DNA of 64,000 nucleotides, from positions 248,001-312,000 of the forward strand of contig NZ_BMOQ01000004.1 of NCBI RefSeq assembly GCF_014647155.1, in the 5' to 3' direction. Below, one piece after another: positions 34,601 through 51,295 of this stretch (the stretch's first letter is position 1; the number at the start of each line of letters is the position of its first letter). Under the pieces are notes generated by a model. The model saw only the letters and a list, made by a program, of their open reading frames with translations, had not been told where the DNA came from and made no database searches. The translations under genes and the position numbers were made by a program. The DNA is from Halarchaeum nitratireducens (GTDB taxonomy: Archaea > Halobacteriota > Halobacteria > Halobacteriales > Halobacteriaceae).

Positions 34601-34981
34601 GGCGACACGCCCCACTCGCATCGCGAACGGCTCTTCCACGAGTTCCGCGCGGGCGAGCGCGACACCCTGCTCGTCTCGCGCGTCGCCGACGAGGGGATCG
34701 ATCTCCCGGACGCCGAGCTGGCGATCGTCGCCTCCGGGCTCGGCGGATCGCGCCGTCAGGGTGCCCAGCGCGCCGGTCGAACGATGCGACCCGCGGGGCG
34801 CGCGCTCGTCTACGTGCTCGCCACGCGCGGGACCGAGGAAGAGGACTTCGCGCGGAACCAGACGCGCCACCTCGCGGAGAAGGGCGCGCGAGTGCGGGAG
34901 GCGGACGCGGAGGCGCACGCGGATGCGAACGGCGGTGAGCATCCGCGGAACGGGCGAACGGGGAGCGAGCGCGACCCGTGA
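31616..34981 (+). CDS. rad25: XPB/Rad25-type DNA helicase containing an intein
   Basis: 1121 residues as translated from the GTG start; about 626 after splicing. Walker A GPPGSGKT is at 273-280 and DEAH at 363-366. Motif III (SATP) is split: LGL at 385-387 is followed by the intein and resumes with SATPVRGDD at 883. Motif VI reads QRAGRTMRP near 1053. The N-terminal 240 residues contain a winged-helix-like part and the damage-recognition-like segment seen in archaeal XPB. It unwinds or remodels DNA in nucleotide-excision repair or transcription. The C-terminal tail is acidic and Glu/Ala/Arg-rich. Splicing would be needed for activity because the intein splits the conserved helicase core. Confidence 0.9.
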   Translation: MTDDETDPTLSLDAFYDALESVGRPVVTAGRLAGVLGWTQAEASDALDRLADDDAAVQRVDVSNDPVVWFPTDWARTTERERVVVFPEHREVVVDQPTQFTRAQLAQFATLTDTTGENAYRYRVREEDVWGAPHGDVEALQRTLRQALGDRYPTLEEFVTDQWRRARQFRLYTHDEGYVVLEASSPEMMGNVAEQHLSEGTIRAPITDTEAWVAAEAVATVKRDLYEAGYPVQDDRTLDEGAAIDIDLRLSLRDYQRGWVKRFVESGSGVLVGPPGSGKTVAALGVMDDIGRETLILVPGRELVGQWRDSLLEYTTLTHDDVAEYHGGVKEIGPVTIATYSSAGMERHRRLFDEKRWGLVVYDEAHHIPGDVFRRTADLQASARLGLSVDGDTVVPVRSETGVEMRRIESLASEYLGDGVGVASVSDLETLAVTEDGAVEWTPLTSVMRHAHDGPLYRVRARNGREVTVTEDHSLIVFDGDEMAITSKLPGDLGDDDFLLQPSTLPDAVASAESTGDADTSTVDVMGLLDEGYVLVNEDAPTSAFDALYERDVGDNKARYRWKSRRYLPLDVAREIDFEREFVKGVYVHGRRTYVPPVVSTEAFARLAGLFVADGAIDDHRVEFYAEDSAQTSEVDAFRDVIRAVCPEADINSVANGENCTTLRVSGVLPRILEKIGLSNGAREKHVPPMVLSNPDAYEPFLEGVVLGDGHRATRERGREMVTISTSSDRLAQGLNLILAELGYVGGVYRRDCDVGVREGEHDTVTNNLVRFNSKNRQSGGRLSLTPFTETLSDAYEGLPRDPSRAADGGQLTSGLSDRVRLNDDELRTISARSGIDADWLAETDVAMLDVESVTEVDGEEYVYDVSTEHENFLGNHLFCHNSATPVRGDDREADIYTLIGPPIGTDWEALFEAGFVQEPEVEIRFVPWTDDEHRYEYASADGHERRMLAASNPAKIDEVRAILESHPDAKTLLFVDYLDQGEQLSDALSIPFVSGDTPHSHRERLFHEFRAGERDTLLVSRVADEGIDLPDAELAIVASGLGGSRRQGAQRAGRTMRPAGRALVYVLATRGTEEEDFARNQTRHLAEKGARVREADAEAHADANGGEHPRNGRTGSERDP
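32777..34261 (+). other. Intein with LAGLIDADG homing endonuclease, in Rad25
   Basis: 495 residues (388-882 of the precursor). It begins with Ser1 (SVDGDTVVPVRSETG, block A), has block B (VTVTEDHSLIVF), two DOD endonuclease motifs (LAGLFVADG at 607-615; LEGVVLGDG at 702-710), block F (VYDVSTEHENFLG), and ends HLFCHN with Ser as the +1 extein residue. All the residues for splicing are present, although Ser rather than Cys is used at both nucleophile positions. Codons at the boundary (GGA TTA TCG) and within the insert are less GC-biased than the host exteins, as expected for a mobile insertion. Confidence 0.92.
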
Positions 34982-38002: not shown

Positions 38003-39010
38003 TCACGACCGTAGTACCGACGCCGCGACTCCCTCGGCGAACCCCACCCCGTACGCGACGTACTGCACGACGAGGAGCAGCGGCGCGAGCAACGCGAGCG
38101 GCGTTCGGCGCTCGCGGTAGACGGCGCGCGTCACGAGCGCGGCGACCGGGAGGAACGCGAGGCAGAGCGCGGGGACGTAGCGCGGGCCGCGGCGGAGGTC
38201 GCGGAGCGCGGCCGCGGCGCCGCCGAGGAGGGCGAGCGTCGGGACCGGGGAGTACCACCGGACGAGTCGGCGGTGACGACACTGGATGCGCGCCATCGCG
38301 TCGCCGTAGCTGCGGCTCTTGCGCGCGAACGCCCGAAGCGTCGGCGTGAGGTGGTGGCGGACGACGATCCGCGGATCGTAGCAAAAGCGGTAGCCGTCGC
38401 GGGCGAGACGGTAGTGGAACTCGGCGTCCTCGCCGACGTTGACGGTGTCGTCGTAGCGGTACTCGTCGAAGACGTCGCGTCGGTAGCAGACGTTACACGC
38501 CGCGACGGAGCGCACGAGCCGGACGTCGTCGATGGCGCGGGACTGGGGGCTGCCCCCGGAACCGAACGCGGTCCGCTGGAGGCTCCCGACGACGCGCGCG
38601 AACGCGGGATCGTCCTCGAAGGCGACGTTCGGTCCGCCGGCCCCGACGACCACGGGGTCGTCAGCGTACGTTTCGAGGCGCGCGACGTGGTCGGCCAGCC
38701 ACGTCGGGGGCACCCGACAGTCCGAATCGGTGAACGCGACGTAGTCGCCCTCGGTCGCCTCGACGCCGCGATTGCGACACGCGCCGATCCCCGCGCCGTC
38801 CGCGCTCACGAGTCGGGCGTCGAACTCCGCGACGACGTCGCGCGTCGCGTCCGTCGATCCGCCGTCGACGACGACGACCTCGTAGCGCTCGTCGGGGTAG
38901 CGCTGCCGGTCGAGCGACGCCAGCGTCTCCGCGACGGTGTCGGCCGAGTTGTACGTCACGACGATCACGCTCACGGTCGGGTCGACCGACTCCGGGTCGC
39001 GTTCCGTCAT
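38003..39010 (-). CDS. Glycosyltransferase family 2, membrane-anchored
   Basis: 335 residues. GT-A core with TVSVIVVTYNSADTVAETLASLDRQ, VVVVDGGSTDAT and the DxD-type FTDSDCRVPP (near 111). Then come an acceptor segment (NVGEDAEFHYRLARDGYRF) and, from about 255, three hydrophobic segments. It likely elongates a lipid-linked glycan at the inner membrane face. It opens the surface-glycan region. The minus-strand promoter CACAGTTATTCGGG lies 22-35 nt before the ATG. Confidence 0.87.
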   Translation of the reverse strand: MTERDPESVDPTVSVIVVTYNSADTVAETLASLDRQRYPDERYEVVVVDGGSTDATRDVVAEFDARLVSADGAGIGACRNRGVEATEGDYVAFTDSDCRVPPTWLADHVARLETYADDPVVVGAGGPNVAFEDDPAFARVVGSLQRTAFGSGGSPQSRAIDDVRLVRSVAACNVCYRRDVFDEYRYDDTVNVGEDAEFHYRLARDGYRFCYDPRIVVRHHLTPTLRAFARKSRSYGDAMARIQCRHRRLVRWYSPVPTLALLGGAAAALRDLRRGPRYVPALCLAFLPVAALVTRAVYRERRTPLALLAPLLLVVQYVAYGVGFAEGVAASVLRS

Positions 39011-39232
39011 CGTCGCCGCTACGTCGCTCGCCCGAATAACTGTGTAGGGCCGCCGCGGTACCGACAGATGTCGAACACGAAGCGGGCGATAGTCCGTCTC
39101 ACGGCCGGCATCCGGTCGGTCCCTCGTCGGTGGTACGCCGCCGTCGACCGCCTCGTCCGCCCTCGACCGCCCGTCGACGCCGTCGGGCACGGCGAGCGCT
39201 GACGTGAGTACGCACCCCGTCCCTCGTGGGTA

Positions 39233-39243
39233 CATATATATCG
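39233..39243 (+). promoter_or_regulatory. Promoter of the LamG/beta-helix operon
   Basis: ATATATATCGA, 22-32 nt before the ATG at 39265, giving a leaderless transcript. Confidence 0.65.
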
Positions 39244-39264: not shown

Positions 39265-40272
39265 ATGGATGGAGATCGAGAACCGGTCGACGGACTCACC
39301 AGACGCGACTGGCTGAAGCTCGCCGGCGTCGCGGCCGCCGTACCGCTCGCGGGCCCCGCGACGGGCACGGCGAGCGCCGCCGCGGCGGACGGGGTAGCGT
39401 ACGGCTACGGCGGGGGCGCGGTCCGCGTCGCCGCGCCCGCGCTCCTCGGTGAGCTCGGCACCGCCACGGCGAGCGTTTCGCTCCCGACACCGGTCGCGCA
39501 CTGGACGTTAGACGAAAACGGCGGACGGGTCGTCCGCGACACCGCCGGCGATCACGACGGGACGCTCGTCGGGAACCCCGTGCTCGGTGAGCCGGGAGTC
39601 CGGGGCTCGGGCGCGCTGGACTGCCGTCGACGCGACGGCCACTACGCGACGGTCCCGCACGACCCGACGCTCGCGCCGCGCGAGTCGCTGACGATCTCGG
39701 GGTGGTTCCGCACGAGCGCGGACGACACCGAACAGACGATCATGCAAAAGGCGACCGACCACGTGCGCGGATCTGGGTACGTCCTCGACGTCCAGGCCGG
39801 ACGGGCGTTCCGGGCGAAGCTCGGCGTCGAGTCCGGGCGCGCGTTCGTCAACCCTTGGGCGGACTTCGACGCGCACGACGGCGTGTGGCACCACCTCCTC
39901 GCCACGTGGAACGGGGACGCGCTCGTCCTCTACTACGACGGCGAGGAGGTCGGCCGCGACGAGAGCCAGTCGGGTGCGCTCGTCGCCGACGACAGCCCGT
40001 TGCACATCGGTCACGGGCACAACGCGTGGGCGACGGTCTACGACATGGCGGGCTCGGTCGACGACGTGCGGCTCTACGACGTCGCCCTCGACGCCGACGC
40101 CGTCCGCGCGCTCTACGAGGGGACGTCGACGGTCGACGACGGCGGTGGGTCGACCACGACTACGACCACACCGACCACGACGACGACCACGCCGACCGAC
40201 GACGCTGACGACGAGTACGGCGAGCAGGGGTACGGCGCGTACGGCTACGGCGGTGTTCCCACCCAACCATGA
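39265..40272 (+). CDS. Tat-exported LamG-domain protein with Tyr/Gly motifs
   Basis: 335 residues. A twin-arginine signal (TRRDWLKLAGVAAAVPLAG, about 12-30) ends near ASA. A LamG/concanavalin-like domain spans about 75-290 (VAHWTLDENGGRVVRDTAGDHDGTLVG; SLTISGWFRT; HLLATWNGDALVLYYDGEEV; DVRLYDVALDADAV). Then a Thr-rich linker (TTTTTTPTTTTTTPTDD) and the Tyr/Gly tail GYGAYGYGG. A second YGYGGG lies right after the signal. LamG folds bind polysaccharide, so it probably attaches to the cell-surface glycan. Its stop overlaps the next start by 4 bp. Confidence 0.85.
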   Translation: MDGDREPVDGLTRRDWLKLAGVAAAVPLAGPATGTASAAAADGVAYGYGGGAVRVAAPALLGELGTATASVSLPTPVAHWTLDENGGRVVRDTAGDHDGTLVGNPVLGEPGVRGSGALDCRRRDGHYATVPHDPTLAPRESLTISGWFRTSADDTEQTIMQKATDHVRGSGYVLDVQAGRAFRAKLGVESGRAFVNPWADFDAHDGVWHHLLATWNGDALVLYYDGEEVGRDESQSGALVADDSPLHIGHGHNAWATVYDMAGSVDDVRLYDVALDADAVRALYEGTSTVDDGGGSTTTTTTPTTTTTTPTDDADDEYGEQGYGAYGYGGVPTQP

Positions 40273-41585
40273 CTGAGAACCACGGATACAACACGCCCGC
40301 GGCGGGCACGACCGACTGGCACGTACCGCTGAACGAGAACTTCGAGGCCTTCGACGCGGACGTCGAGGTCCGCGATACGGACGCGAACCGGACGAACTAC
40401 GCGCCGAAGTCCGGAGCGAAGTTCCTCGCGACCGACACCGGCCGCGTCTACCTCGGCGACGGGTCCGCGTGGAGCTCCCTCGGATCCCTCTCCGGCGACG
40501 CGGCGGGCGGCGGAGGCGTCACCGAAGCGCTCGTGAAGGGGAACCTCGTGGTGCTCGGGCGTCAACTCGCCGCGCCCGAGACGATCGACCCCGCCTCGAC
40601 GGACACTCCGGTACAGGACGGGCTCGATCGCCTCGCGTCGAACGGCGGCGGCACCGTCCGCCTCCCGCCGACGACAGTCTCGGAGGGAGGGATGATCAGC
40701 GTGCCGAGCAACGCCGCGATCTTCGGTTTCGGACCGGACGTCTCGAAGGTCGCCATCACGCCCGCCGGCGTCGACGGCGTCGTCTTCGACGAAGCGGGCG
40801 GCGTCGATCACGCCCAACTCGACGGCTTCGCGCTGAACGGTCCCGGGCCGGGCGTCGACTCGGGCGTCGCCATCCACCACGTGAACGGCGACACGCAGAA
40901 CCTCCGCATCGGCCGCCTCGTCCTCTGGGGGTGGACGAACAGCGTCTACCGCGTCGATCAGGGCGTCGGCCCCTTCCAGTGTCGCCACGAGGAGATCACG
41001 GTCTACGACTGCGACGCCGGGGCCGAGGACGGCCTCTTCGAGTTCCGCTCGTGGTACGGGCCGGCGAACTGGTTCGGCACTATCGCGGCCTATCCGACCG
41101 CGGACGCGAGCGGGCAGAACACGACGGTGTTCTTCACGCGCGGGGGCACGCAGACCATCGACTACCTCACGATGGGCGGCTCGGCCGGGACGGCGCTCCA
41201 CCAGACGTGGGACGCCCAGCTCCGCGTCGAGAGCGTCCACTGGGAGCCCACCGAACTCCGCTCGACCCCGGACGCGATCGTGCGGCTGCTCGGCCACGGC
41301 GTCGCCCAGATCGGGAACGTCAAACACATCACGGGCGCGACGCGACACGTCTACGAGCTCGGCTACGACGCGTACAACGCGAACGCGCCCGCGGCGAAGG
41401 TGCTCGGGCCGTACTTCGGTCTCGGGGGGTCGCTCGGTGCGGCCGTCGTGAACCTCGCGGCGGCCGCGGACGCCGCGCGGCCGTCGTTCTACTGGGGCAT
41501 GGCGGCCGACGTCGACGTCACGCACGGCGACGGCGCGACCGGCGGTCTGCGTGCGCTCGGCGAGGCCGGGGCCGCGGTCGGCTAG
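40269..41585 (+). CDS. Right-handed beta-helix protein without a signal peptide
   Basis: 438 residues. The N-terminal 75 residues (TDWHVPLNENFEAFDADVEVRD; GAKFLATDTGRVYLGDGSAW) resemble small modules on haloarchaeal and viral tail-like adhesins. From about 110 a pectate-lyase-superfamily beta-helix follows (DGLDRLASNGGGTVRLPPTTV; YNSxYxVxQGVGPFQCRHEE-like turns). The body is paralogous to the minus-strand gene at 43996. No signal peptide or Cys anchor is seen, yet it is co-translated with the Tat LamG gene (ATGA overlap), so it may travel with that partner. Confidence 0.78.
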   Translation: MTENHGYNTPAAGTTDWHVPLNENFEAFDADVEVRDTDANRTNYAPKSGAKFLATDTGRVYLGDGSAWSSLGSLSGDAAGGGGVTEALVKGNLVVLGRQLAAPETIDPASTDTPVQDGLDRLASNGGGTVRLPPTTVSEGGMISVPSNAAIFGFGPDVSKVAITPAGVDGVVFDEAGGVDHAQLDGFALNGPGPGVDSGVAIHHVNGDTQNLRIGRLVLWGWTNSVYRVDQGVGPFQCRHEEITVYDCDAGAEDGLFEFRSWYGPANWFGTIAAYPTADASGQNTTVFFTRGGTQTIDYLTMGGSAGTALHQTWDAQLRVESVHWEPTELRSTPDAIVRLLGHGVAQIGNVKHITGATRHVYELGYDAYNANAPAAKVLGPYFGLGGSLGAAVVNLAAAADAARPSFYWGMAADVDVTHGDGATGGLRALGEAGAAVG

Positions 41586-41616
41586 ACTAATGTGGTCGTC
41601 GCCCGACCGGTGAGGC

Positions 41617-42858
41617 ATGCAGACAGTCGTCCTCGCCGCGGGTCGTGGCACTCGGATGCGGCCGTTGACCGACCGCCGACTGAAGCCGATGCTGCCCGTC
41701 GCGGGCCGCCCGCTCGCCGCGCACACGGTCGAGGCGGCCGCCGACGCGGGCGCGTCGCGCGTCGTCCTCGTCGTCCAATCCGACGACGACGCCGTGCGCG
41801 AGTACTTCGGTGACGAGCACGCGGGCGTGGAACTCGACTACGCCGTCCAGACCGAACAGCGCGGCACCGCGGACGCCGTGCGCGCCGCCGCCCCGACGCT
41901 CGACGACGCGCCGTTCGTCGTCCTGAACGGCGACGCCCTCTACGATCACGACTCGCTCGCCGCCCTCTACGACCGCGCGCCCGCCGTCGGCGCGTTCCGC
42001 GTCGCGGACCCGACGCAGTACGGCGTGCTCCTCACTGACGAGTCGGGCGAGCGCGTCACGGGCGTCGTCGAGAAGCCCGCCGATCCCCCCTCCGATCTCG
42101 TGAACACGGGCGCGTACGCCCTCCCCGCGGCGGCGAAGTCGTGGCTCGACGTCGACGAGTCCGCGCGCGGCGAGCTCGAGTTCACGGACGTCCTCGCACG
42201 GGCCTGCGCGGAGTTCGCCGTCAGCCCGGTCGCCTTCGAGCGCTGGCTCGACGTCGGCCGCCCGTGGGAGCTGCTGGCGGCGAACGAGTGGAAGCTCGCG
42301 GAACTCGGTGGTCGCGTGGAGGGCGACGTACACGTCGACGCCGAACTCAGCGGTGACGTCGTCGTCGCGGACGGCGCGACGGTGCGCTCGGGCGTCGTGA
42401 TCGAGGGGCCCGCGTACGTAGATCGCGGCGCGACGGTCGGGCCGAACGCCTACGTCCGGGGCGCGACGTACATCGGCCCCGACGCGAAGGTCGGTCACGC
42501 CGTCGAGGTGAAAAACAGCGTCATGATGGCGGACGCGCACGCTGGCCACCTCAGCTACGTCGGCGACAGCGTCCTCGGGCGAGCGACGAACCTCGGCGCG
42601 GGGACGAAGGTGGCGAACCTCCGCCACGACGGCGACTCGGTGAAGATGCTCGTGAAGGGCGAAGTCGTCCCGACCGGCCGCCGTAAGCTCGGCGTGGTCC
42701 TCGGCGACGGCGCGAAGACGGGGATCAACACGAGCCTGAACGCCGGCGTGAAACTCCCGACCGACGGCGCGACCCGGCCCGGCGAAGTCGTCATGTTCGA
42801 TCCCGACAGCGAGCGGGGCCGCGCGGCGCGTGACGGGCGCGAGCGCGACGATGAGTGA
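41617..42858 (+). CDS. Bifunctional sugar-1-phosphate nucleotidylyltransferase/acetyltransferase
   Basis: 413 residues. N-terminal Rossmann-like transferase: VVLAAGRGTRMRPLTDRRLKPMLPVAGRPL (GxGxRxxPxTxxxPK) and LNGDALYDH. C-terminal left-handed beta-helix hexapeptide repeats (about 240-390: VVIEGPAYVDRGATVGPNAYVRGATYIGPDAKVGHAVEV). It is the archaeal GlmU/GalU-like two-domain type that makes UDP-GlcNAc or a UDP/TDP hexose. It probably feeds the surface-glycan enzymes in this cluster. The next gene overlaps its end by 8 bp. Confidence 0.88.
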   Translation: MQTVVLAAGRGTRMRPLTDRRLKPMLPVAGRPLAAHTVEAAADAGASRVVLVVQSDDDAVREYFGDEHAGVELDYAVQTEQRGTADAVRAAAPTLDDAPFVVLNGDALYDHDSLAALYDRAPAVGAFRVADPTQYGVLLTDESGERVTGVVEKPADPPSDLVNTGAYALPAAAKSWLDVDESARGELEFTDVLARACAEFAVSPVAFERWLDVGRPWELLAANEWKLAELGGRVEGDVHVDAELSGDVVVADGATVRSGVVIEGPAYVDRGATVGPNAYVRGATYIGPDAKVGHAVEVKNSVMMADAHAGHLSYVGDSVLGRATNLGAGTKVANLRHDGDSVKMLVKGEVVPTGRRKLGVVLGDGAKTGINTSLNAGVKLPTDGATRPGEVVMFDPDSERGRAARDGRERDDE

Positions 42859-43999
42859 CGACCGGGGGGGCCGGCGCGACGCGGACGCCGCGCCCGCGCC
42901 CCACCCCCGAGGCCGCAACCTCGCGGGCGACGCCCTGCGCGCCCTCCGCACTCGCCTCGGCGCGTCGCCGGCCGTCGGAAACGCCGCGTGGCGCCTCGGC
43001 GAACTGCTCCATCACGGGGGGGGCGAGCGACGCCCCGGAACCGCGGAGGCCGGCCGGATCGCGGGCTTGTCCGACGGGCCGGACGCTCCGACGTATCCGA
43101 TCGAGGCACCGATCGCGGACCCCCTCGATCCAGCGCCCGCGCCCGGCGTCGTCAACCCCGTCTTGACGGTCGCGGACGTGACCGACGTGACGGGCGCCCA
43201 CTGCGTCGCCGATCCGTTCCTCCTCCCCCTCGCGGGGACGTGGCACCTCTTCTTCGAGGTGTACGCCCACTACCGGCGGCCGACGGCCGTCATCGCGCAC
43301 GCGACGAGTCCCGACGGCGCCGACTGGACGTACGACGGCGTCGTCCTCGAAACCGAACACCACCTCTCTTACCCCTACGCCTTCCGGTGGGACGGCGACC
43401 ACTACATGGTCCCCGACGCGTGGTCGAAGGACCCCGCGAACCCCGCGCCCGTCACGCTCTACCGGGCGCGCGACTTCCCGCGGGGCTGGGAGCCGATCGC
43501 CGACCTGTTCACCCCGCCCGGCGACCTCCACGACTGCACGCTCTTCCGGTGGGACGGGCGTTGGTGGGCGCTCTGCGGCGACGGCCGCGACCTCTACGCC
43601 TACCACAGCGACGCGCTCGACGCCGACGGGTGGACGCCACACGCCGCGAACCCCGTCGTCGCAGGCCGGCCCGCCGGCGCGCGCCCCGGTGGTCGCCCGA
43701 TCGTCCGCGACGAGCGCGTCCTCGCCTTCTACCAGGACGGCACCGACCACTACGGTGGGCAGGTGCGCGCGTACGAGATCACCGATCTCACCCCGGAAAC
43801 GTACCGCGATCGGGAAGCCGACGGCTCGCCCGTGATGCACGCCGACGGGGAACGGTTCGGGTGGCTCTCGGGGTTCACCCACCAGTTCGACCCGTGGTAC
43901 GACGGCGAGGGGTGGTGGTGCGCGGTGGACGGCAACCCCGGCTTCGGCTGGCGGCTGACCGGCGACCACCACTGGGCGATCGGGATGTTCCGGGCTTAG
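42851..43999 (+). CDS. Five-bladed beta-propeller protein, GH43/GINT1-N-like
   Basis: 382 residues. Repeating blade signatures with Trp/Phe-rich turns: CVADPFLLPLAGTWHLFFEVYA, YDGVVLETEHHLSYPYAFRWDGDHYMVPD, HDCTLFRWDGRWWALCGDGRDLYAYHS, VLAFYQDGTDHYGGQVRAYEI and DGEGWWCAVDGNPGF. This is the five-bladed propeller shared by GH32/43/62 enzymes and the N-terminal part of eukaryotic GINT1 glycosyltransferases. No signal peptide is seen. It may act on the nascent glycan inside the cell. It overlaps the nucleotidyltransferase gene by 8 bp and converges on the second beta-helix gene. Confidence 0.75.
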   Translation: MSDDRGGRRDADAAPAPHPRGRNLAGDALRALRTRLGASPAVGNAAWRLGELLHHGGGERRPGTAEAGRIAGLSDGPDAPTYPIEAPIADPLDPAPAPGVVNPVLTVADVTDVTGAHCVADPFLLPLAGTWHLFFEVYAHYRRPTAVIAHATSPDGADWTYDGVVLETEHHLSYPYAFRWDGDHYMVPDAWSKDPANPAPVTLYRARDFPRGWEPIADLFTPPGDLHDCTLFRWDGRWWALCGDGRDLYAYHSDALDADGWTPHAANPVVAGRPAGARPGGRPIVRDERVLAFYQDGTDHYGGQVRAYEITDLTPETYRDREADGSPVMHADGERFGWLSGFTHQFDPWYDGEGWWCAVDGNPGFGWRLTGDHHWAIGMFRA

Positions 44000-45228
44000 G
44001 CGAGGCCGACGCCGGCGTCCCCGAGGACGCGCAGGCGTCCCTCGTTCGGAACGCCGAGCGAGACCGTTACGTCGTCTCGCACCCCGTAGTACCACGAGCG
44101 CGACCCGCGCTCCCCCCGACCGTTGACGCGGACGACGTTCCCCGTGACGGTGCCGCGGGTGGCGCCCGGCGGTACGAGGTGCTTGTTCCCGAAGCCGCTC
44201 GCCAACTCGTAGACGTAGGGGACCGTCCCGGTGTCGACGACGACGTCGGCGACGTGCGTGACGCCCGATCCGGCGAGGCGGACGAGCGCCTCGGGCGTCG
44301 CCGGCTGGGACTCGGGCTCCCAGTGGAGGCGGCCCGCGCGGAGACGGCCGTCGGTCTGCTCGACGAGCGTGCCGGCGGTCCCGCCGACGGAGACGTCCTC
44401 GAACGCGAGCTCGCCCCCGGCCTGTCGGAGGACCGTCGTCGGCGCGCCGCTCGCGCGGGCGTTCGGGTACGCGACGACCGTCCCGAAGTGGTTCGCGGGC
44501 CCGTACTCCGAGCGCCAGTCGAGCAGCGCGCCGGCCGCGCCCGCGTCGCAGTCGTCCGCGCGGAGGAAGTCGTAGCGACATTGGAACGGGCCGACGCCCT
44601 CCTCGACGCGGAGGACGCTGTTCCCCCACTGGCGACAGTAGAGCCGTCCCACGTGGACGTCCGCGGGGTCGTTCGCCGGGTCGTCCGTCGCGTCGACGTA
44701 GTGAATGGCGACGCCGGTGTCCTTCCGGACGCCCGGCCCGCGTAGCTCGAAGCCGTCGAGCGCGACGCGCTGGACGGACTCGTCGCGGTCGAAGCGAACC
44801 CCGTCCGTCCCGGACGAGCGGACGTGGATCACGGAGACGTTCATCCCGCAACCGTAGAGCCCCGTGTTCGGGTGCGGGCGGACCGGGCCCGCTTCGGTGA
44901 CCGTCGTCGGCGGGAGGTAGACGCGCCCGCCGCCCACCGCGTCGACCGCATCGAGGGCGTCCTGCACGGGGGTCGCCGTCGCCGTCGGATCGAACGCCGC
45001 ACCGCCGATCCCCGCGGCTACCGCGACGACGCGACCGTCGCGAAGCGCCGCGAACGCGCCGCCCTCGATCGACGCGCCCTCAGACACGGTCCTGTCCCCG
45101 CCGTTCGCATCGTCCACGTCGAGGATCGACGCGCAGCCGGCGGTCGATCCCGTGATCGCGGCGGCGAGCGAGGCGCGGAGGACCGACCGGCGTCGCGGGT
45201 CGTCGACGTCGGTTCGCTCGGGACACAC
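43996..45228 (-). CDS. Lipoprotein-like beta-helix protein, paralogue of the 40.3-kb gene
   Basis: 410 residues starting at GTG. A Tat-like N-terminus with RRR and a lipobox (SVLRASLAAAITGSTAGC, Cys about 31) predicts a lipid-anchored exported protein. From about 80 a beta-helix follows that closely matches the gene at 40269 in its diagnostic turns: GVGPFQCRYDF, DCDAGAAGALLDWRSEYGPANHFGTVVAYP. The paralogue lacks this export signal and instead has the tail-like N-terminal module. The two genes point towards each other. It is downstream of the polysaccharide deacetylase gene, with 21 bp between. Confidence 0.82.
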   Translation of the reverse strand: MCPERTDVDDPRRRSVLRASLAAAITGSTAGCASILDVDDANGGDRTVSEGASIEGGAFAALRDGRVVAVAAGIGGAAFDPTATATPVQDALDAVDAVGGGRVYLPPTTVTEAGPVRPHPNTGLYGCGMNVSVIHVRSSGTDGVRFDRDESVQRVALDGFELRGPGVRKDTGVAIHYVDATDDPANDPADVHVGRLYCRQWGNSVLRVEEGVGPFQCRYDFLRADDCDAGAAGALLDWRSEYGPANHFGTVVAYPNARASGAPTTVLRQAGGELAFEDVSVGGTAGTLVEQTDGRLRAGRLHWEPESQPATPEALVRLAGSGVTHVADVVVDTGTVPYVYELASGFGNKHLVPPGATRGTVTGNVVRVNGRGERGSRSWYYGVRDDVTVSLGVPNEGRLRVLGDAGVGLA

Positions 45229-45249: not shown

Positions 45250-46044
45250 TCACGATAACCCTTCGCCCCGAACCGCGCGCCGAAGGCGCTCGGCGGCCCC
45301 GGTGAGCTCCCAGCGGACGACCGACGGCGGTTGCGCGCCGTCGATCCGCGGGAGCAGCGCCGGATCGGCCCGCCGGCCGACGAGCCCGTCGCCCGCCGTC
45401 GCGTAGTCGTGCGATTCGCGGACGACGTCGACGGCGGTCGGCGAGTGGTCGCCGTACGGATAGCAAAAGCGCGTCACGTCGAGGCCGAAACGCGATTCCA
45501 AGCGCTCCTTCGCGCCGACGACCTCGTCGCGGACCGCGTCCGGATCGAGGCGGTCGAGGTGGGCGTGCGTTCGCGTGTGGTTGCCGACGGTGATGCGCTC
45601 AGCGTCGCCGAGCGCCGCGACGTCGTCGGCGTCGAGGTACGGGACGCCGTTGTCGCTCAGGCCGCCCACCCGGTCGGCGATGACGAACACCGTCGCGGGC
45701 GCGTCGAACTCGCGGAGGACGGGGAGCGCGTGGGTGCGAAAGTCCCGGTAGCCGTCGTCGAAGGTGAGCGCGACGCGCGGCGTCGTTCCCGCGTCGAGGA
45801 CCGCGGGGAGGTCGACGAACTCGTAGCGCGCGTCGAGCCACGCGAGCTGTGCCCGGAGCGCCTCCGGGTCGAAGCGTCGGCCGGCCGCGTTCCCCTCCTC
45901 GCCGTCGAGGGAGTGGTACATCATCACCGCGTTCCGCGTCCCCGGCGTCCCCACGTGTAGGTACGCGTCGAACGCCGCGCAGAGCCGCCACGACGCCGCT
46001 TTCCCGGCCGCGACCACGTCTCCGATCATACCCTCGGTACGCAT
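45250..46044 (-). CDS. Polysaccharide deacetylase (NodB/CE4 family)
   Basis: 264 residues from ATG 46044 (a GTG at 46050 and an ATG at 46029 are alternatives). VMMYHSLDGEE, TFDDGYRDF (catalytic Asp-Asp), NHTRTHAHLDRL (metal-binding H-x(3-5)-H) and CYPYGDHSPTAVDVV are the CE4 landmarks. It removes N-acetyl groups from a surface glycan. There is no obvious signal peptide; an N-terminal hydrophobic stretch (SWRLCAAFDAYLHV) is weak. It shares a promoter region with the GT4 gene at 46112. Confidence 0.85.
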   Translation of the reverse strand: MRTEGMIGDVVAAGKAASWRLCAAFDAYLHVGTPGTRNAVMMYHSLDGEEGNAAGRRFDPEALRAQLAWLDARYEFVDLPAVLDAGTTPRVALTFDDGYRDFRTHALPVLREFDAPATVFVIADRVGGLSDNGVPYLDADDVAALGDAERITVGNHTRTHAHLDRLDPDAVRDEVVGAKERLESRFGLDVTRFCYPYGDHSPTAVDVVRESHDYATAGDGLVGRRADPALLPRIDGAQPPSVVRWELTGAAERLRRAVRGEGLS

Positions 46045-46080
46045 CGACACGGGTAATCGTTTCCTCCCCGACCCCCGGAA

Positions 46081-46111: not shown

Positions 46112-47317
46112 ATGCCCGCGGACGCCCCCCCGGACTACCGTGCGCTCGCCGTCGCCGCCGAGCATCCGAGCCACGTCCATCCGGTTCGGACGCCGTTCAA
46201 CCACCGCTCGCTCGACGCGCTCTGCGAGGCGGGCGTCGACCTCGACGTCGTCTCCCCCTCGCCGATCGCGCCGCCGGTCGGGCCGTACTCGGAGTACCGA
46301 CACGTCCCGCGGACCGAACGGTGGGGGCGCTACCGCGTCCACTACCCACGCTATCTCTACGCGCTCCCGAAATCGCGCTTCTATCAGGTCTCGGGGAACT
46401 CGATGCGTCGGCGTCTCGCCGCCTTCGTCCCGGAGACCTTCGAGACGCCCCACGACGTCGTCCACACCTGCGGCGTCTACCTCGACAGCTACGGCGCGCT
46501 CGACTACTGCCGGGACCACGACGTCCCCCTGGTGGCGATGACGCACGCCGGGGACCTGCGAAACTACGACGCGTTCAACGACGACGTGCAGGCGAAGATC
46601 CGCGAGACGATCGACTACGCGAGCCGCGTGCTCACGGTCAGCGACGAGCTCGCGGGCGTCGCGCGGCGCTTCGCGCCCGAGGCGAAGGTGGAGACGGTGC
46701 CGATCGGTGAGGACCCCTCGAAGTTCCCGACGGACAGACGCGACGCCATCCGGCGCGAGCTCGGCCTCGATCCGGATACCGAGGTCCTCCTCTACGTCGG
46801 GCGCTTCGAGGAAGCGAAGGGCGTGCGCGAGCTCGTCGCCGCACTGCACGAGCTCGACCGGACCGACGTCTTCCTCGCGGCGATCGGCCACGACGGCGAC
46901 CTCCGCTGGTGGTTCGTGAACGAGCTCGGCGAGATGGACCACGGCACGCACGCCTTCTGGCGGCTGGATCCCGTCGCGGTGCGGCGCTGGCACGTCGCCG
47001 CCGACCTGCTCGTCCACCCGAGCCACACGGAGGCGCGCCCGACCGTCATGTACGAGGCGATGGCGGCGAAGACGCCGATCCTCGGGACGACCGTCGGCGG
47101 CGTCCCCGAGATGGTCGCGGACGGCGAGACGGGGATCCTCGTCCCGCCGCGCGACGCGGACGCGCTCGCGGACGCCATCGACGCCCTCCTCGACTCGCCC
47201 GAGGGCCTGCGCGCGATGGGCGAGCGCGGCCACGAGCGCCTGCTGGCGAACGACTGGACGTGGGAGCGCCACGCCGACCGCCTCCGCGAGATCCATCGCG
47301 CGGTGATCGGGGAATGA
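46112..47317 (+). CDS. Glycosyltransferase family 4
   Basis: 401 residues, GT-B fold. A first Rossmann half (APPDYRALAVAAEHPSHVHPVRTPFNHRSL; DVVHTCGVYLDSYGALDY) leads to the donor half with VLLYVGRFEEAKGVRELVAAL and HPSHTEARPTVMYEAMAAKTPILGTTVGGVPEMVADGETG, the EX7E-type motif. It adds a hexose to the glycan chain. The stop overlaps the next GT2 gene by 4 bp, so the two are co-translated. Confidence 0.88.
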   Translation: MPADAPPDYRALAVAAEHPSHVHPVRTPFNHRSLDALCEAGVDLDVVSPSPIAPPVGPYSEYRHVPRTERWGRYRVHYPRYLYALPKSRFYQVSGNSMRRRLAAFVPETFETPHDVVHTCGVYLDSYGALDYCRDHDVPLVAMTHAGDLRNYDAFNDDVQAKIRETIDYASRVLTVSDELAGVARRFAPEAKVETVPIGEDPSKFPTDRRDAIRRELGLDPDTEVLLYVGRFEEAKGVRELVAALHELDRTDVFLAAIGHDGDLRWWFVNELGEMDHGTHAFWRLDPVAVRRWHVAADLLVHPSHTEARPTVMYEAMAAKTPILGTTVGGVPEMVADGETGILVPPRDADALADAIDALLDSPEGLRAMGERGHERLLANDWTWERHADRLREIHRAVIGE

Positions 47318-48318
47318 GCGACCGGCGGTCGGACACGCGAGAGGGCGACGACGCGCGCGGCGGCCGGCGGGGCTCGATCGAACGCGACGGCGGCGACGAC
47401 GCCACCGCCGAGCCGCCGCGCGTCAGCGTCGTCATCCCCGCCTACCGGCGCGCGGACGTCCTGCCGCGGGCCATCGACGGCGCGCTCGCGCAGACGGTGA
47501 CGGCTCTCGAAGTGATCGTCGTGGACGACGGGTCGCCGGACGACACCGAGTCGGTCGTCCGCGCGTACGACGACCCGCGGGTGCGCTACGTCGCCCACGA
47601 GACGAACCGCGGCGTGAGCGCCGCGCGTAACACGGGCGTCGACGCGGCCCGGGGCGACTACGTCGCCTTCCTCGACTCGGACGACGAGTGGCTCCCCCGG
47701 AAGCTCGATCGCCAGCTCGCCGTCCTCGACGCGAAGGGAGCCGACTGGATCGGCGTCTACTGCGACTACGCGACCGTCGGAGGCGGCCTCGGCGCGCGCC
47801 TCGCCGCCCTCGTCTCCGAGCGGGTCTTTCGCGCCGGCGCGCCCCGCGAGGGCGGGCGCGAGCTCGCCGAATCGCTCCTCACGATGCGCGTCTTCATGGG
47901 CCCCGGTTCGACGCTCCTCGTCGCCCGCGACGCCCTCGACGGTCTCGCCTTCGACGAGGGGCTCTCCATCTACGAGGACTGGGACCTCGTCCTCCGCCTG
48001 CTCGCGCGCGGGAAGCTCGCGCACGTCGCCGAGCCCCTCGCGGTCGTCCACGACACCGGCGACGCGCCCCCGGACGCCTACGCCCGCAACGACCGTCGGT
48101 ATCTCGAACGCAACGCCGACCTCGTCGCCGACCTCGAAGGGCGCGGCATCGACGTCGCGCGGATCCACCGCATGGGTCTCGTCGGCCACTATCTCCACGA
48201 GGGCCGCTTTCGGGACGCGCTCAGCTACCTCGACCCCGGCGTGCTCGCTCGCCCCGGCGACCTCCTGCGCCTCGCGTGGTGGACGTGCGTCGGAGCGCGG
48301 GTCGCGCTCCGCACGTAA
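47314..48318 (+). CDS. Glycosyltransferase family 2
   Basis: 334 residues. PRVSVVIPAYRRADVLPRAIDGALAQT, EVIVVDDGSPDDTESVV, AFLDSDDEWLPRKL (DxD) and FDEGLSIYEDWDLVLRLLARG (ED acceptor motif) are all present. The N-terminal 35 residues are an acidic low-complexity extension. It overlaps the preceding GT4 gene by 4 bp. There are no membrane helices, only a weak hydrophobic tail (LAWWTCVGARVAL). Confidence 0.87.
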   Translation: MSDRRSDTREGDDARGGRRGSIERDGGDDATAEPPRVSVVIPAYRRADVLPRAIDGALAQTVTALEVIVVDDGSPDDTESVVRAYDDPRVRYVAHETNRGVSAARNTGVDAARGDYVAFLDSDDEWLPRKLDRQLAVLDAKGADWIGVYCDYATVGGGLGARLAALVSERVFRAGAPREGGRELAESLLTMRVFMGPGSTLLVARDALDGLAFDEGLSIYEDWDLVLRLLARGKLAHVAEPLAVVHDTGDAPPDAYARNDRRYLERNADLVADLEGRGIDVARIHRMGLVGHYLHEGRFRDALSYLDPGVLARPGDLLRLAWWTCVGARVALRT

Positions 48319-48468
48319 GCTCCACCCTCGCCGTCGACCTCCGGCGAGAGGCGACGAGAGACCGGATGGAACGGCCTGAGGAGGGCGAGCGCCCCGGGAG
48401 CGAAGACGACGAGCGCGGCGGGTGCGAGCGACTAAGTGGCGTCCCGTCCTCCCCTCACCCGAACGCCC

Positions 48469-49227
48469 GTGTCCGACTACCCGCCCGTCTCCGTCGTGAT
48501 CCCGTACAGCGAGCAGTACACCCCCGAGTGGATGCTGGAGGAGGCGACGGCCTCGGTGGAGGCGCAGGCCGTCGAGACCGAACCCCTCGTCGTCGCGGGC
48601 GACGACGGCCCCGCGGCCGCGCGCAACGAGGGACTGGACCGGGCCAGCCATCGCCACGTCGCGTTCCTCGACGCCGACGACACGTGGCACGACGACAAGC
48701 TCGTCCGCCAGCTCGACGCGATGCGCGAGGCGGACGCCGGCCTCTGCGTCGAGGGCGACTCACGCACGATGGACGATTTCGTCTACGACGTCTTCGTCGG
48801 CGATCTCACCTCTCTCATGTCCTCGGTGCTCGTCGACACCGCGCGGATCGATGCGCGCTTCGACGACGATCTCGAACGCGGCGAAGACCTCCTCTACGTC
48901 CTGACGGCCGCGACGCAGGCCGGCGTCTGTCTGCGCCCGGATCTCTTCGCGCACCGCGAGCACGCCGACAGCGTCACCGCGCGCGGGATGGCCGTCGAGG
49001 AGTACCTCGCGCAGTCCAAGCGCTTCGTCTACCGGGTGAGCGAACGCGTCCCCGAAGCCCAGCCCTACCTCCCGATCTACTACACGCAGCTGTACACGGA
49101 CGTCGGGCGGGCGCACGCGGCGGACGGCGACGCTCGGCGCGCGCGGACGTACTACCTGCGGGCGCTCCGAATCAGCCTCCACCCTCACACGCTCGCGGCG
49201 CTCGCCCGGACGTACCTGCCGTTCTAG
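48469..49227 (+). CDS. Glycosyltransferase family 2 (short form)
   Basis: 252 residues from GTG 48469 (an in-frame GTG at 48436 is possible). YPPVSVVIPYSEQYTPEWMLEEATASVEAQ, AAARNEGLDRASHRHVAFLDADDTWHDDKL (DxD) and RGEDLLYVLTAATQ. The nucleotide-binding part is intact; the acceptor part is compact. It is the third consecutive plus-strand transferase. Its stop overlaps the convergent membrane-protein gene by 4 bp. Confidence 0.82.
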   Translation: MSDYPPVSVVIPYSEQYTPEWMLEEATASVEAQAVETEPLVVAGDDGPAAARNEGLDRASHRHVAFLDADDTWHDDKLVRQLDAMREADAGLCVEGDSRTMDDFVYDVFVGDLTSLMSSVLVDTARIDARFDDDLERGEDLLYVLTAATQAGVCLRPDLFAHREHADSVTARGMAVEEYLAQSKRFVYRVSERVPEAQPYLPIYYTQLYTDVGRAHAADGDARRARTYYLRALRISLHPHTLAALARTYLPF

Positions 49228-51236
49228 TCGGGCCGACCCGCGGTCGGCGCGGTCCCGTTGCCGAAGAGCGCGTCGCCCTCGCGCGTCTCCACGACGTGGA
49301 CGCCGTCGCTACTGAAGACGACGTCGCGCGTGGCGAGGGCGTGCCGATAGCGCTCCTCGGAGACCGTGTACCACTGGAGCTGCGCGGAGACGGCGACGTC
49401 GCTCTCCGCCGTCGGGACGAAGTGTCGCGTCCACGCGTCACGGACGATAACGCGGTCGGTGGGCGCGGGCGCGGTTAGGCCACGGGCGGTGGCGTTCAGC
49501 GCGCCGACGCGCGGTCGCGCATCCGGTGGGCCCTGAACGGACGCGAGCGCGCGCCGCATCACGACATCCGCGGCCGCCGTTCCGTTCGTGTCCGCGAGGT
49601 AGGCCGCGACGTCGCCGACGGCCGCGTACTCGGCGTCGCTCATCGCCACCTGCGCGCCCCGCTGTTCGACGTAGACGGGTGGACCATCGAGATCGTCGGC
49701 GCTCGATCTGGTGAACGCGCCCGCGCTTCCGAACGCCGCGACGAGGACGACGGCGGCGACCAGGACGACGCGGTAGCGAGGCCGGGCCCGGAGGAGGCGC
49801 GCGAGGCCGAGCCCGATCGGGAAGACGGCGAGCAGGACGACGACGAACTGGATGCGCTCGCCCTGCGGGAGCGCCACGGGGAGCGGGAGGAGGACGGTGG
49901 CGAGAACGAACGCCGTGGCGACGACGCTCGCGCCGCGAGCGTACGTCTCGGTGCGTTCGAGGAACTCGTAGCCGCCGAGCAGGAGGACGGCGGTGGTGAG
50001 CGACGCGTAGACCCCGACCGGCGTGGCCAGCCACGCGAGCGCGCGCCCGACCGAGTCCGACGGGAGCGTCGCCCCGTAGCTGAAGACGACCGACGACGCC
50101 GCGCTCACCGCGTCCCCGAGCACCTGCGCGGCGATGGCGACGATCGCGTAGAGCATCAGGCTCGGCGAGTAGACGAGGTAGGCGAAGACGCAGAGCAGAC
50201 CGAGGACGATCGGGAACGTCCACCGGAGGCGCGCCCACTCCCACGGCCGCGTCGCCAGCGCGTCCCACCCGAGGCGGCCCGCGAGGACGCCGCGGAGAAC
50301 CGAGACGCCGGCGACCGCGACGATGAGGCCGACGAGCAGGACGTACGTGAGGTGGTGTGCGAGGACGAGCGTCGGGACGAGGGCGAGCGCGTAGGCGGCG
50401 TGTTCGCGCCGACGGGCCGTGTGACCGACCGCACGCCGCGCGAGGACGGCGTAGAAGCCGACTGCGAGCAGCGCCAGCGCGAACGACTGCGGGAAGAAGT
50501 AGAGCGCGTCGTACGCCGGGAGGTCGAGTATCGTGAACGCCGCGGCGCAGCAGAGCGCGATCCGCCGGTCGCCGAGCAGGCGGACGCCGACGAGGTACGT
50601 CACGGGCACGAGCGCCGCGTACGTGAGGACGCCGGTGAGGACGATCGCGTCGTACGGGACGAAGCCGGTGACGAACGTCACGGTACCGGTGAACAGGTGG
50701 AAGACGGGGAAGAGGTCGTAGCCGTAGGGGAGGAGGGCGCTGCGTCCCGTCGAGAGCAGGCGATCGAGCGCGGCGACGTGCGCGAAGACGTCCGTCCCGC
50801 CGAAGTAGAACCCGGTCGTGAGGTACTTGGCGATGACGGGGACGGCGAAGGTGGTCGTGAGCGCGAGCAGCGTCGGGCCGGGGTCGGGGTCGTCGGCCGC
50901 GAGCTGGTCGGCGACGAGCACGTACGCGACGAGGAGGAACGCGACGACGGGGAGGAGCCGCGAGCCGAGCTCGACCGTGGCGATAATCGATCCCGCTCCG
51001 CCGACGACGACGAGCTTCGACGCGACGGAGGCGGGGAGGAACGCGCGCCGCTCGCGCTCGCCTCCCGTCGCGGCGTAGGCGACGAGCGCGATGACGGCAC
51101 CGGCGAGCGCGTACGTCGAGCGGATCGCCGTCGGCGGCTGCAGGACGTCCAGCGCGGCGAGCGCGGCGAGGAGCCCGACGACGACGCAGCACGCCAGGAC
51201 GGCGAGCGCGAACACGAGACGGCGACGCGTCGGCAT
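49224..51236 (-). CDS. Large polytopic membrane protein, GT-C-like
   Basis: 670 residues from ATG 51236. About 14-16 membrane helices occupy the first 500 residues, then an external-looking domain (RSSADDLDGPPVYVEQRGAQVAMSDAEYAAVGDVAAYL...). An acidic loop, YFGGTDVFAHVAALDRLL near 145-165, resembles the DxD-like catalytic loop of GT-C transferases, and a helix repeat pattern fits that superfamily. It may be a lipid-linked-oligosaccharide-using transferase or a polymerase-like glycan assembly protein. The exact reaction is unknown. Confidence 0.7.
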   Translation of the reverse strand: MPTRRRLVFALAVLACCVVVGLLAALAALDVLQPPTAIRSTYALAGAVIALVAYAATGGERERRAFLPASVASKLVVVGGAGSIIATVELGSRLLPVVAFLLVAYVLVADQLAADDPDPGPTLLALTTTFAVPVIAKYLTTGFYFGGTDVFAHVAALDRLLSTGRSALLPYGYDLFPVFHLFTGTVTFVTGFVPYDAIVLTGVLTYAALVPVTYLVGVRLLGDRRIALCCAAAFTILDLPAYDALYFFPQSFALALLAVGFYAVLARRAVGHTARRREHAAYALALVPTLVLAHHLTYVLLVGLIVAVAGVSVLRGVLAGRLGWDALATRPWEWARLRWTFPIVLGLLCVFAYLVYSPSLMLYAIVAIAAQVLGDAVSAASSVVFSYGATLPSDSVGRALAWLATPVGVYASLTTAVLLLGGYEFLERTETYARGASVVATAFVLATVLLPLPVALPQGERIQFVVVLLAVFPIGLGLARLLRARPRYRVVLVAAVVLVAAFGSAGAFTRSSADDLDGPPVYVEQRGAQVAMSDAEYAAVGDVAAYLADTNGTAAADVVMRRALASVQGPPDARPRVGALNATARGLTAPAPTDRVIVRDAWTRHFVPTAESDVAVSAQLQWYTVSEERYRHALATRDVVFSSDGVHVVETREGDALFGNGTAPTAGRPD

Positions 51237-51257
51237 ACCACGACCCACCGCGGGCGA

Positions 51258-51295
51258 GCGCAAAACCCTGCCGGTGGCCGGGAAACCGTTACCAC
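51258..51295. promoter_or_regulatory. Divergent promoter region, membrane protein and glmM
   Basis: AACCGTTACC on the plus strand (about 51284-51294), 24-34 nt before the glmM ATG, and GGGTTTTGC on the minus strand (51260-51270), 25-34 nt before the membrane-protein ATG. Confidence 0.4.

Follow-up and report, generated by a model that had tools for sequence, protein, structure and literature searches.

The twin-arginine translocation (Tat) pathway transports folded proteins (PMC6708511), and in Streptomyces the signal-less enzyme MelC2 hitchhikes on MelC1, a Tat partner encoded upstream of it (PMC2758597). In Pantoea stewartii, the tailspike-like stewartan hydrolase WceF has a Tat signal and is encoded in an exopolysaccharide (EPS) cluster, and its loss lengthens the polymer (PMC7949094). 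Here we describe a locus of the haloarchaeon Halarchaeum nitratireducens, lying in a stretch of 64,000 nucleotides (the window; G000:C4:248001-312000 of a 3.14-Mb genome), in which a LamG gene with a Tat signal runs directly into bhA, a beta-helix gene without a signal, while a second beta-helix gene, bhB, has a Tat-like signal of its own. Coordinates are positions within the window except where a locus number precedes them; G-numbers denote genomes, G000 being that of the window, and L-numbers denote fetched loci. To our knowledge, the Tat hitchhiking precedents are all single dedicated complexes. LamG ends in a GYG tail and bhA begins with a domain that we name DWH, and the best explanation, to which we give about an even chance, is that the pair would be one example of a modular Tat-hitchhiker system for export and display in haloarchaea.

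As in the MelC1/MelC2 pair, the two genes are adjacent, the upstream partner has the Tat signal, and the downstream partner has none. However, MelC1 is a dedicated copper chaperone of one tyrosinase, with export shown experimentally, whereas the haloarchaeal tail and domain recur in many unrelated proteins, which we call carriers and cargos and whose joint export is proposed here. The likeness to WceF lies in a Tat-exported beta-helix protein whose gene belongs to an EPS synthesis cluster and which probably acts on the cell's own polymer, a layout that bhB shares. In WceF the Tat signal stands in cis, as it does in bhB but not in bhA; moreover, glycosidase activity and a trimer are established for WceF, which bhB resembles in layout. 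By this analogy, bhA would be a WceF-like version with its signal in trans. We found no prior description of haloarchaeal Tat hitchhiking, of the tail motif, or of a LamG/beta-helix glycan module in the open-access literature, and the carrier/cargo arrangement, which is broader than this locus, is apparently undescribed so far.

The LamG-bhA pair and the paralogue bhB

The LamG carrier (39265..40272, plus strand, 335 amino acids [aa]) starts with an RR-type (twin-arginine) signal, TRRDWLKLAGVAAAVPLAG, whose arginines are residues 13-14 and which lacks a lipobox. An inner YGYGG follows at residues 46-50, then a Laminin_G_3 domain at residues 125-280 (PF13385; E=4.5e-23, 82.5 bits against a Pfam gathering cut-off of 27.6), a Thr-rich linker, and the C-terminus DDEYGEQGYGAYGYGGVPTQP, which makes the protein a GYG-tail protein. 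The tail itself, YGEQGYGAYGYGG, was located by a DNA pattern scan at 40216..40254 on the plus strand (G000:C4:288216-288253); it has the form "YGEQGYGxYGYGG," and DDEYGEQGYGAYGYGG is a tail peptide. The TGA of LamG and the ATG of bhA (40269..41585, plus strand, 438 aa) share 4 nucleotides (nt), ATGA. The bhA product is a signal-less cargo with a DWH domain at residues 1-72 (40269..40484, plus strand; profile match) and a beta-helix core at residues 83-432 (40515..41564, plus strand; AlphaFold2 and Foldseek). Its paralogue bhB (43996..45228, minus strand) has no DWH domain and begins with PRRRSVLRASLAAAITGSTAGC, which contains RR and a lipobox-like TAGC.

These features bear out the gene positions of the first-pass annotation, as well as its description of a Tat-signal LamG gene next to a signal-less beta-helix copy and of a second copy with a Tat-like signal and lipobox. 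It overlooked the N-terminal DWH domain of bhA and the GYG tail of LamG, the two features that place this locus within a wider carrier/cargo arrangement.

The GYG tail is genomically linked to the DWH domain

When the strict tail, defined as a DNA pattern, was scanned over 392 haloarchaeal genomes, 66 sites were found in 58 of them. Among these sites, 44 precede a DWH domain on the same strand at a distance of 12-153 nt, and for 42 of the 44 the distance is no more than 59 nt, against a chance expectation for such adjacency of about 1.7e-5 per site; two more are followed by a DWH domain about 4.4 kb downstream. A profile survey placed the DWH domain in 102 of the 392 genomes, and 55 of the 58 tail genomes are among these 102 (Fisher p=9e-35, a value that overstates independence because the genomes are related). 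In the window genome, there is a single strict tail and a single DWH domain, side by side. Seen from the cargo side, a gene with a Tat signal plus a tail stands directly upstream of 40 of 89 non-redundant DWH genes and directly downstream of none; for another 14 of the 89, mainly in Haloarcula loci, the carrier lies elsewhere in the fetched stretch, and two convergent DWH genes in those loci may share one carrier. The genomic linkage of the GYG tail and the DWH domain is, in our estimate, practically certain. Relative to the carrier frame, DWH starts occur in all three frames, and the carriers stop at TGA, TAA, or TAG; therefore, carrier and cargo are two polypeptides.

The carriers have little else in common. 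At loci retrieved by the DWH domain alone, the gene just upstream is repeatedly a Tat protein ending in DDYGEQGYGxYGYGG or similar. RR and a hydrophobic stretch mark LamG as well as the 41 carriers whose Tat start could be assigned, although RR was part of carrier selection, so its presence in all 41 is no independent evidence; the inner GYGG occurs in 39 of the 41 and a lipobox in 32. In an alignment of 23 diverse carriers, with 12% mean column identity, nothing but RR, the inner GYGG, and tail glycines is invariant. The middle part can hold LamG, CBM6/35, or PPC domains, and it can be minimal: the smallest carrier of the first set (L047, 110 residues) consists of signal, linker, and tail, and shorter ones of 86-94 aa exist.

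Variation around the tail was also observed. Divergent tails stand upstream of DWH or DWH-like genes in L101, L106, L109, L110, and L131 (ASQGYGEFWYGG, NYGEYGYGG, GGYLEGGYGSEAYG, AGYGEGGYGNGGFG, and GWGEGSWGAGPW, respectively), and, judging from these sequences, the strict pattern seems to undercount carriers. In L180 and L181 (G343 and G188, both of the Haloarcula-type genus g11), a frame of 89 aa opens with a Tat-like hydrophobic stretch and ends in GYGEDGYGE(Q/G)GFGG. L166, L167, L174, L176, and L178 represent a second type of GYG protein, in which the motif comes right after the Tat signal and before a longer C-terminal domain and has no DWH adjacent to it.

A carrier/DWH pair is also present on plasmid pHH400 of Haloarcula hispanica (HAH_RS18945/HAH_RS18950). 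The annotated start of HAH_RS18945 (L187 4330-5976) is placed about 170 codons too far into its open frame, which removes the Tat/lipobox signal; the longer carrier frame, L053 1814-3979, contains VIDRRTCMKLAGVAAASLAGC.

The DWH domain is a portable module of signal-less proteins

The DWH domain spans about 72 residues with the pattern MTxNHxYNTPxxGTxDWHxPLNENFExLDxDVEIRD...YxPKxGAKFLATDTGxVYxGDGSxW. In a phylum-wide sample, 16 of 17 genomes with a match were haloarchaeal, and the remaining one, outside this group, was a weak partial match. The domain is fused to unrelated C-terminal parts; in a Pfam scan of 45 cargos, 8 had Polysacc_lyase_14, 4 an S74 endosialidase chaperone, 3 Polysacc_lyase, and 2 Beta_helix, the rest giving no match. 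An upstream in-frame signal was found in none of the 89 non-redundant DWH proteins, 87 of which start no more than 6 residues from the domain. The domain is not confined to N-termini: it is C-terminal in the signal-less beta-helix proteins of L107 and L108, half a domain is joined to a coiled-coil-like end in L117 and L118, and three half-copies stand in a row in L116. Such C-terminal copies make DWH a portable module, and they led us to discard the idea that it is a nonclassical N-terminal signal.

In L041 (1501-3240), L043, and L048 (1-1725), the DWH gene encodes a stand-alone adaptor of about 97-101 aa, and a signal-less beta-helix protein is encoded by a gene of its own behind it; this type has carrier, adaptor, and enzyme on three chains.

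Genes related to glycosyltransferases, flippases, or epimerases lie within about 4 kb of the DWH gene at 38 of 80 DWH loci, compared with 0 of 4 control tiles of the window, and for about half of the DWH loci these neighbors favor the cell's own glycan as the target. With regard to viral relatives, bhA scored below the gathering cut-off for Mtd_N (PF18454; 18.3 versus 26.3 bits), and three other DWH cargos matched this family at E<0.001. No DWH relative was found in viral contigs, no bhA relative in phages, and no PHROG match for bhA or bhB; on these three results, an origin from a virus or prophage was rejected.

Probable exchange of the Tat signal and DWH on one beta-helix core

The two paralogues offer a direct comparison. 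They are 41% identical and have in common a beta-helix core with NSVxRVxxGVGPFQCR...CDAG...RSxYGPANxFGT, while their N-termini differ, DWH standing in bhA where bhB has the Tat/lipobox signal. Natronomonas also has a second copy in tandem, which has a Tat/lipobox signal of its own and groups within the bhA clade, with 94/100 support that applies to the clade and not to the branching within it. Since a Tat-signal copy is nested among bhA proteins, the Tat signal and DWH have probably been exchanged more than once on one core. This swap is the most direct hint from the sequences that DWH plus a carrier may replace a signal peptide.

Structure predictions

A sequence search returned no homologue of solved structure. 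The AlphaFold2 model of bhA (33 rows) has a confident beta-helix at residues 83-432, with a mean predicted local distance difference test (pLDDT) score of 83.7 and mostly above 90 in the core, while residues 1-41, in the DWH domain, are of low confidence; by AlphaFold and Foldseek, the protein is a right-handed parallel beta-helix. Foldseek against the PDB gave AlgE4/AlgE6 mannuronan epimerase modules, phage tailspikes, the PfbA adhesin, and chondroitinase B as top matches, none below E=0.001. The best of them, the A-modules of the AlgE4/AlgE6 mannuronan C-5 epimerases (E=2.8e-3, probability 1.0), are only 10-12% identical, with a TM score of about 0.3, so a fold is shared but an activity cannot be inferred. 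A viral library returned tail proteins and members of the pectate-lyase superfamily, two of them below 0.001. These matches support a glycan-active kind of fold for the modeled bhA but no specific activity. Residues invariant over bhA, bhB, and one distant relative include D249, S261, N267, H324, and E326.

Docking was modeled on the natural in-frame tail-linker-DWH stretch of L065, in which the stop codon was translated as Ser; the alignment had 52 additional rows. In this model the DWH core is well folded (pLDDT 92-97) into a helix and strands, and its Foldseek matches are phage hyaluronan lyases, Geobacillus virus E2 ORF18, Mtd, and the trimerization domains of collagen XV/XVIII, all at E>0.2, weak but coherent. 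These matches suggest a trimerizing attachment module. A similar layout is found in phage tailspikes, HylP2 hyaluronan lyases, and Mtd, where an N-terminal trimerizing or attachment module precedes a beta-helix or lyase; here too the fold matches are weak, and some DWH cargos have S74 chaperones and Mtd_N. In contrast to these phage proteins, bhA and DWH are encoded in cellular loci with glycan genes and a Tat carrier, not in a virion, and no viral relative was found.

Proposed mechanism and alternative explanations

In the mechanism that we propose, a single mRNA would yield a carrier and a cargo. The carrier combines a Tat signal (with a lipobox in most relatives), the inner GYGG, a middle part that binds glycan or is a pure linker, and the C-terminal GYG tail; the cargo, without a signal, has its DWH domain, usually N-terminal, ahead of a part that is a beta-helix, a polysaccharide lyase, or otherwise tail-fibre-like. 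The cargo would fold in the cytoplasm, probably as a trimer, the carrier tail would bind the DWH domain, and the folded complex would be exported by Tat through hitchhiking. Trimeric, chaperone-assisted tailspike-like proteins would need to fold before export, in keeping with Tat. The carrier would then retain the enzyme at the membrane or on glycan, the LamG carrier of the window being without a lipobox. Both bhA, escorted in trans, and bhB, which has its Tat signal in cis, would act on the polysaccharide that the neighboring glycosyltransferases produce, by trimming, modifying, or binding it. The anatomy of the genes, the missing signals, the conserved tail and domain with their genomic linkage, the beta-helix fold, and the glycan context are observed, and direct binding of tail and DWH, Tat co-export, the trimer, and enzyme activity are the parts of this scheme that we infer. 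Its general form, in which any DWH-bearing protein would be recognized by a GYG tail, exported folded, and displayed, with carriers and cargos recombining freely, we advance tentatively, at somewhat below even confidence.

Several findings weigh against this escort. The tail of the L065 model is disordered (pLDDT about 41) and does not dock, in a monomer prediction with only 12 paired rows, which makes for a weak test. Tat signals were called by motif only. No recognized carrier lies within about 4 kb of 35 of the 89 DWH genes, although in at least four of these (L016, L078, L101, and L106) an upstream tail or variant tail is present and was missed by our criteria; a possible explanation for carrier-less DWH genes is the use of a distant carrier in trans. 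Conversely, 20 of the 66 strict tails have no DWH alongside, and some of them are spurious or of another type. The suggestion of the first-pass annotation that the signal-less copy could be exported in complex with LamG is the explanation favored by the comparative evidence.

Four other explanations have to be considered. The tail may bind DWH outside the cell, so that DWH docks an independently exported enzyme onto a surface lectin, the cargo leaving by an unrecognized route. The weak resemblance of DWH to the trimerization modules of phage tail fibres and collagen XV/XVIII, its Mtd_N-like half, and the DWH genes without a nearby carrier would suit such docking, but no DWH protein has a signal, a C-terminal DWH cannot serve as an N-terminal one, and the loci suggest no alternative route, which makes us consider it rather unlikely. 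The absence of a signal peptide and the cytoplasmic glycosyltransferases encoded nearby fit a picture in which DWH proteins never leave the cytoplasm, or stay on the inner side of the membrane, where they work on lipid-linked glycan intermediates or serve as assembly factors, with the carrier merely co-transcribed. We judge this unlikely, because polysaccharide lyases, tail-fibre chaperones, and beta-helices act on polymers, which in flippase-type loci are outside, because the close paralogue bhB has a Tat/lipobox signal, and because the association of tail and DWH across unrelated proteins would be left unexplained.

It is also conceivable, at a low probability, that tail and DWH do not interact, being co-inherited in mobile surface-glycan islands or spreading as a unit with swapped middles. 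The patchy distribution, often on large plasmids and in glycan islands, speaks for this; however, what these otherwise different proteins conserve is the tail and DWH, which are encoded end to end with the tail always first, and DWH and the Tat signal interchange on one core. A single protein made by stop-codon readthrough or frameshifting has hardly any credibility left. The distance from tail to DWH of only 12-59 nt in 42 of 44 pairs and the 20 of 41 pairs in frame would allow it, but in 21 of 41 the two frames differ, the genes overlap or are spaced by varying amounts, carriers use TGA, TAA, and TAG, and some DWH domains are C-terminal; on the frames and stop codons we rejected it. Compared with these readings, we prefer Tat escort of a DWH cargo by a GYG-tail carrier.

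Conservation and gene content of the surrounding locus

Scanning the GTDB genome collection for bhA yielded 13 loci, of which 12 are full length. Full-length bhA is present in 19 of the 392 haloarchaeal genomes and in three GTDB families (the tool's numbering), mostly at about 60% identity; the closest named relative found is Halarchaeum rubridurum, with a 94% identical bhA. In all 12 full-length loci, fetched independently, the spacing of LamG and bhA is about -4 to +18 nt, and LamG is directly upstream of bhA at every bhA locus examined, which runs against the refuting condition set by the first-pass annotation, orthologues that never co-occur. The recurring order is LamG (often with two LamG domains), bhA, propeller, a convergent GT2 glycosyltransferase, bhB on the minus strand, GT4, GT2, GT4, GT2, and a membrane protein, with losses at single loci. 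The arrangement is not due to chance, since LamG and bhA are neighbors throughout and the propeller, GT2, and bhB come after them in most loci. Nearby genes across loci encode a Wzx-type flippase, GlmS, a GlmU-like enzyme, a GSDH-type sugar dehydrogenase, an epimerase, and Gfo/Idh oxidoreductases; such neighbors mark a surface-polysaccharide locus, and the synteny across haloarchaeal families supports the module proposed earlier, as a conserved haloarchaeal one within this locus.

Other parts of that proposal need revision. The GlmU-like sugar-1-phosphate nucleotidylyltransferase/acetyltransferase (41617..42858, plus strand; TIGR03992 Arch_glmU, 498.5 bits against a curated cut-off of 292.1) had been counted as a module member, but it lies between bhA and the propeller gene only in the window's genus (G000, G222, G237, and Halarchaeum CBA1220); outside this genus a GlmU-like gene is found 3-5 kb upstream, usually next to glmS. 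Its genus-specific position led us to drop it as a core part. The propeller gene (42830..43999, plus strand, with an alternative ATG at 42851) belongs to the GINT1_N family (PF24793; E=5e-34, 118 bits against a gathering cut-off of 27) and stands beside bhA in most loci. Its product has no signal and is probably cytoplasmic, which speaks against LamG, both beta-helices, and the propeller as a single exported unit. In a Natronomonas locus (L012 18047-19702, minus strand), a 551-aa protein has the propeller-family domain as its C-terminal half, and the window's stand-alone propeller may correspond to half of a two-part enzyme.

Within the window, the GT2 glycosyltransferase that in relatives lies convergently between propeller and bhB is found at 38003..39235 on the minus strand. 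Beyond bhB, a polysaccharide deacetylase (45250..46050, minus strand; PF01522) is part of the surrounding glycan locus, followed by the glycosyltransferases of the conserved locus (46112..49227, plus strand; GT4 46112-47317, GT2 47314-48318, and GT2 48436-49227) and by the large membrane protein conserved at the locus end (49224..51263, minus strand; no Pfam match). Further upstream, at 31616-34981 on the plus strand, a 1121-aa helicase-like protein has an intein-like interruption, judged by eye, from SVDGDTVVPV... to ...GNHLFCHNSATPVRGDD.

Implications

The proposed escort would be a transferable, trans-acting export tag that mainly places tailspike-like glycan enzymes on the cell's own surface. 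Because many unrelated carrier/cargo pairs have the same two modules, a single binding experiment would test the whole class, and the pHH400 pair of Haloarcula hispanica makes the hypothesis testable in a laboratory strain. If true, it might provide a display tag for folded proteins at high salt, and it would add a protein class overlooked by signal-based secretome prediction. It would also explain how many signal-less haloarchaeal beta-helix and polysaccharide-lyase proteins, mostly annotated as "hypothetical," arrive at the surface.

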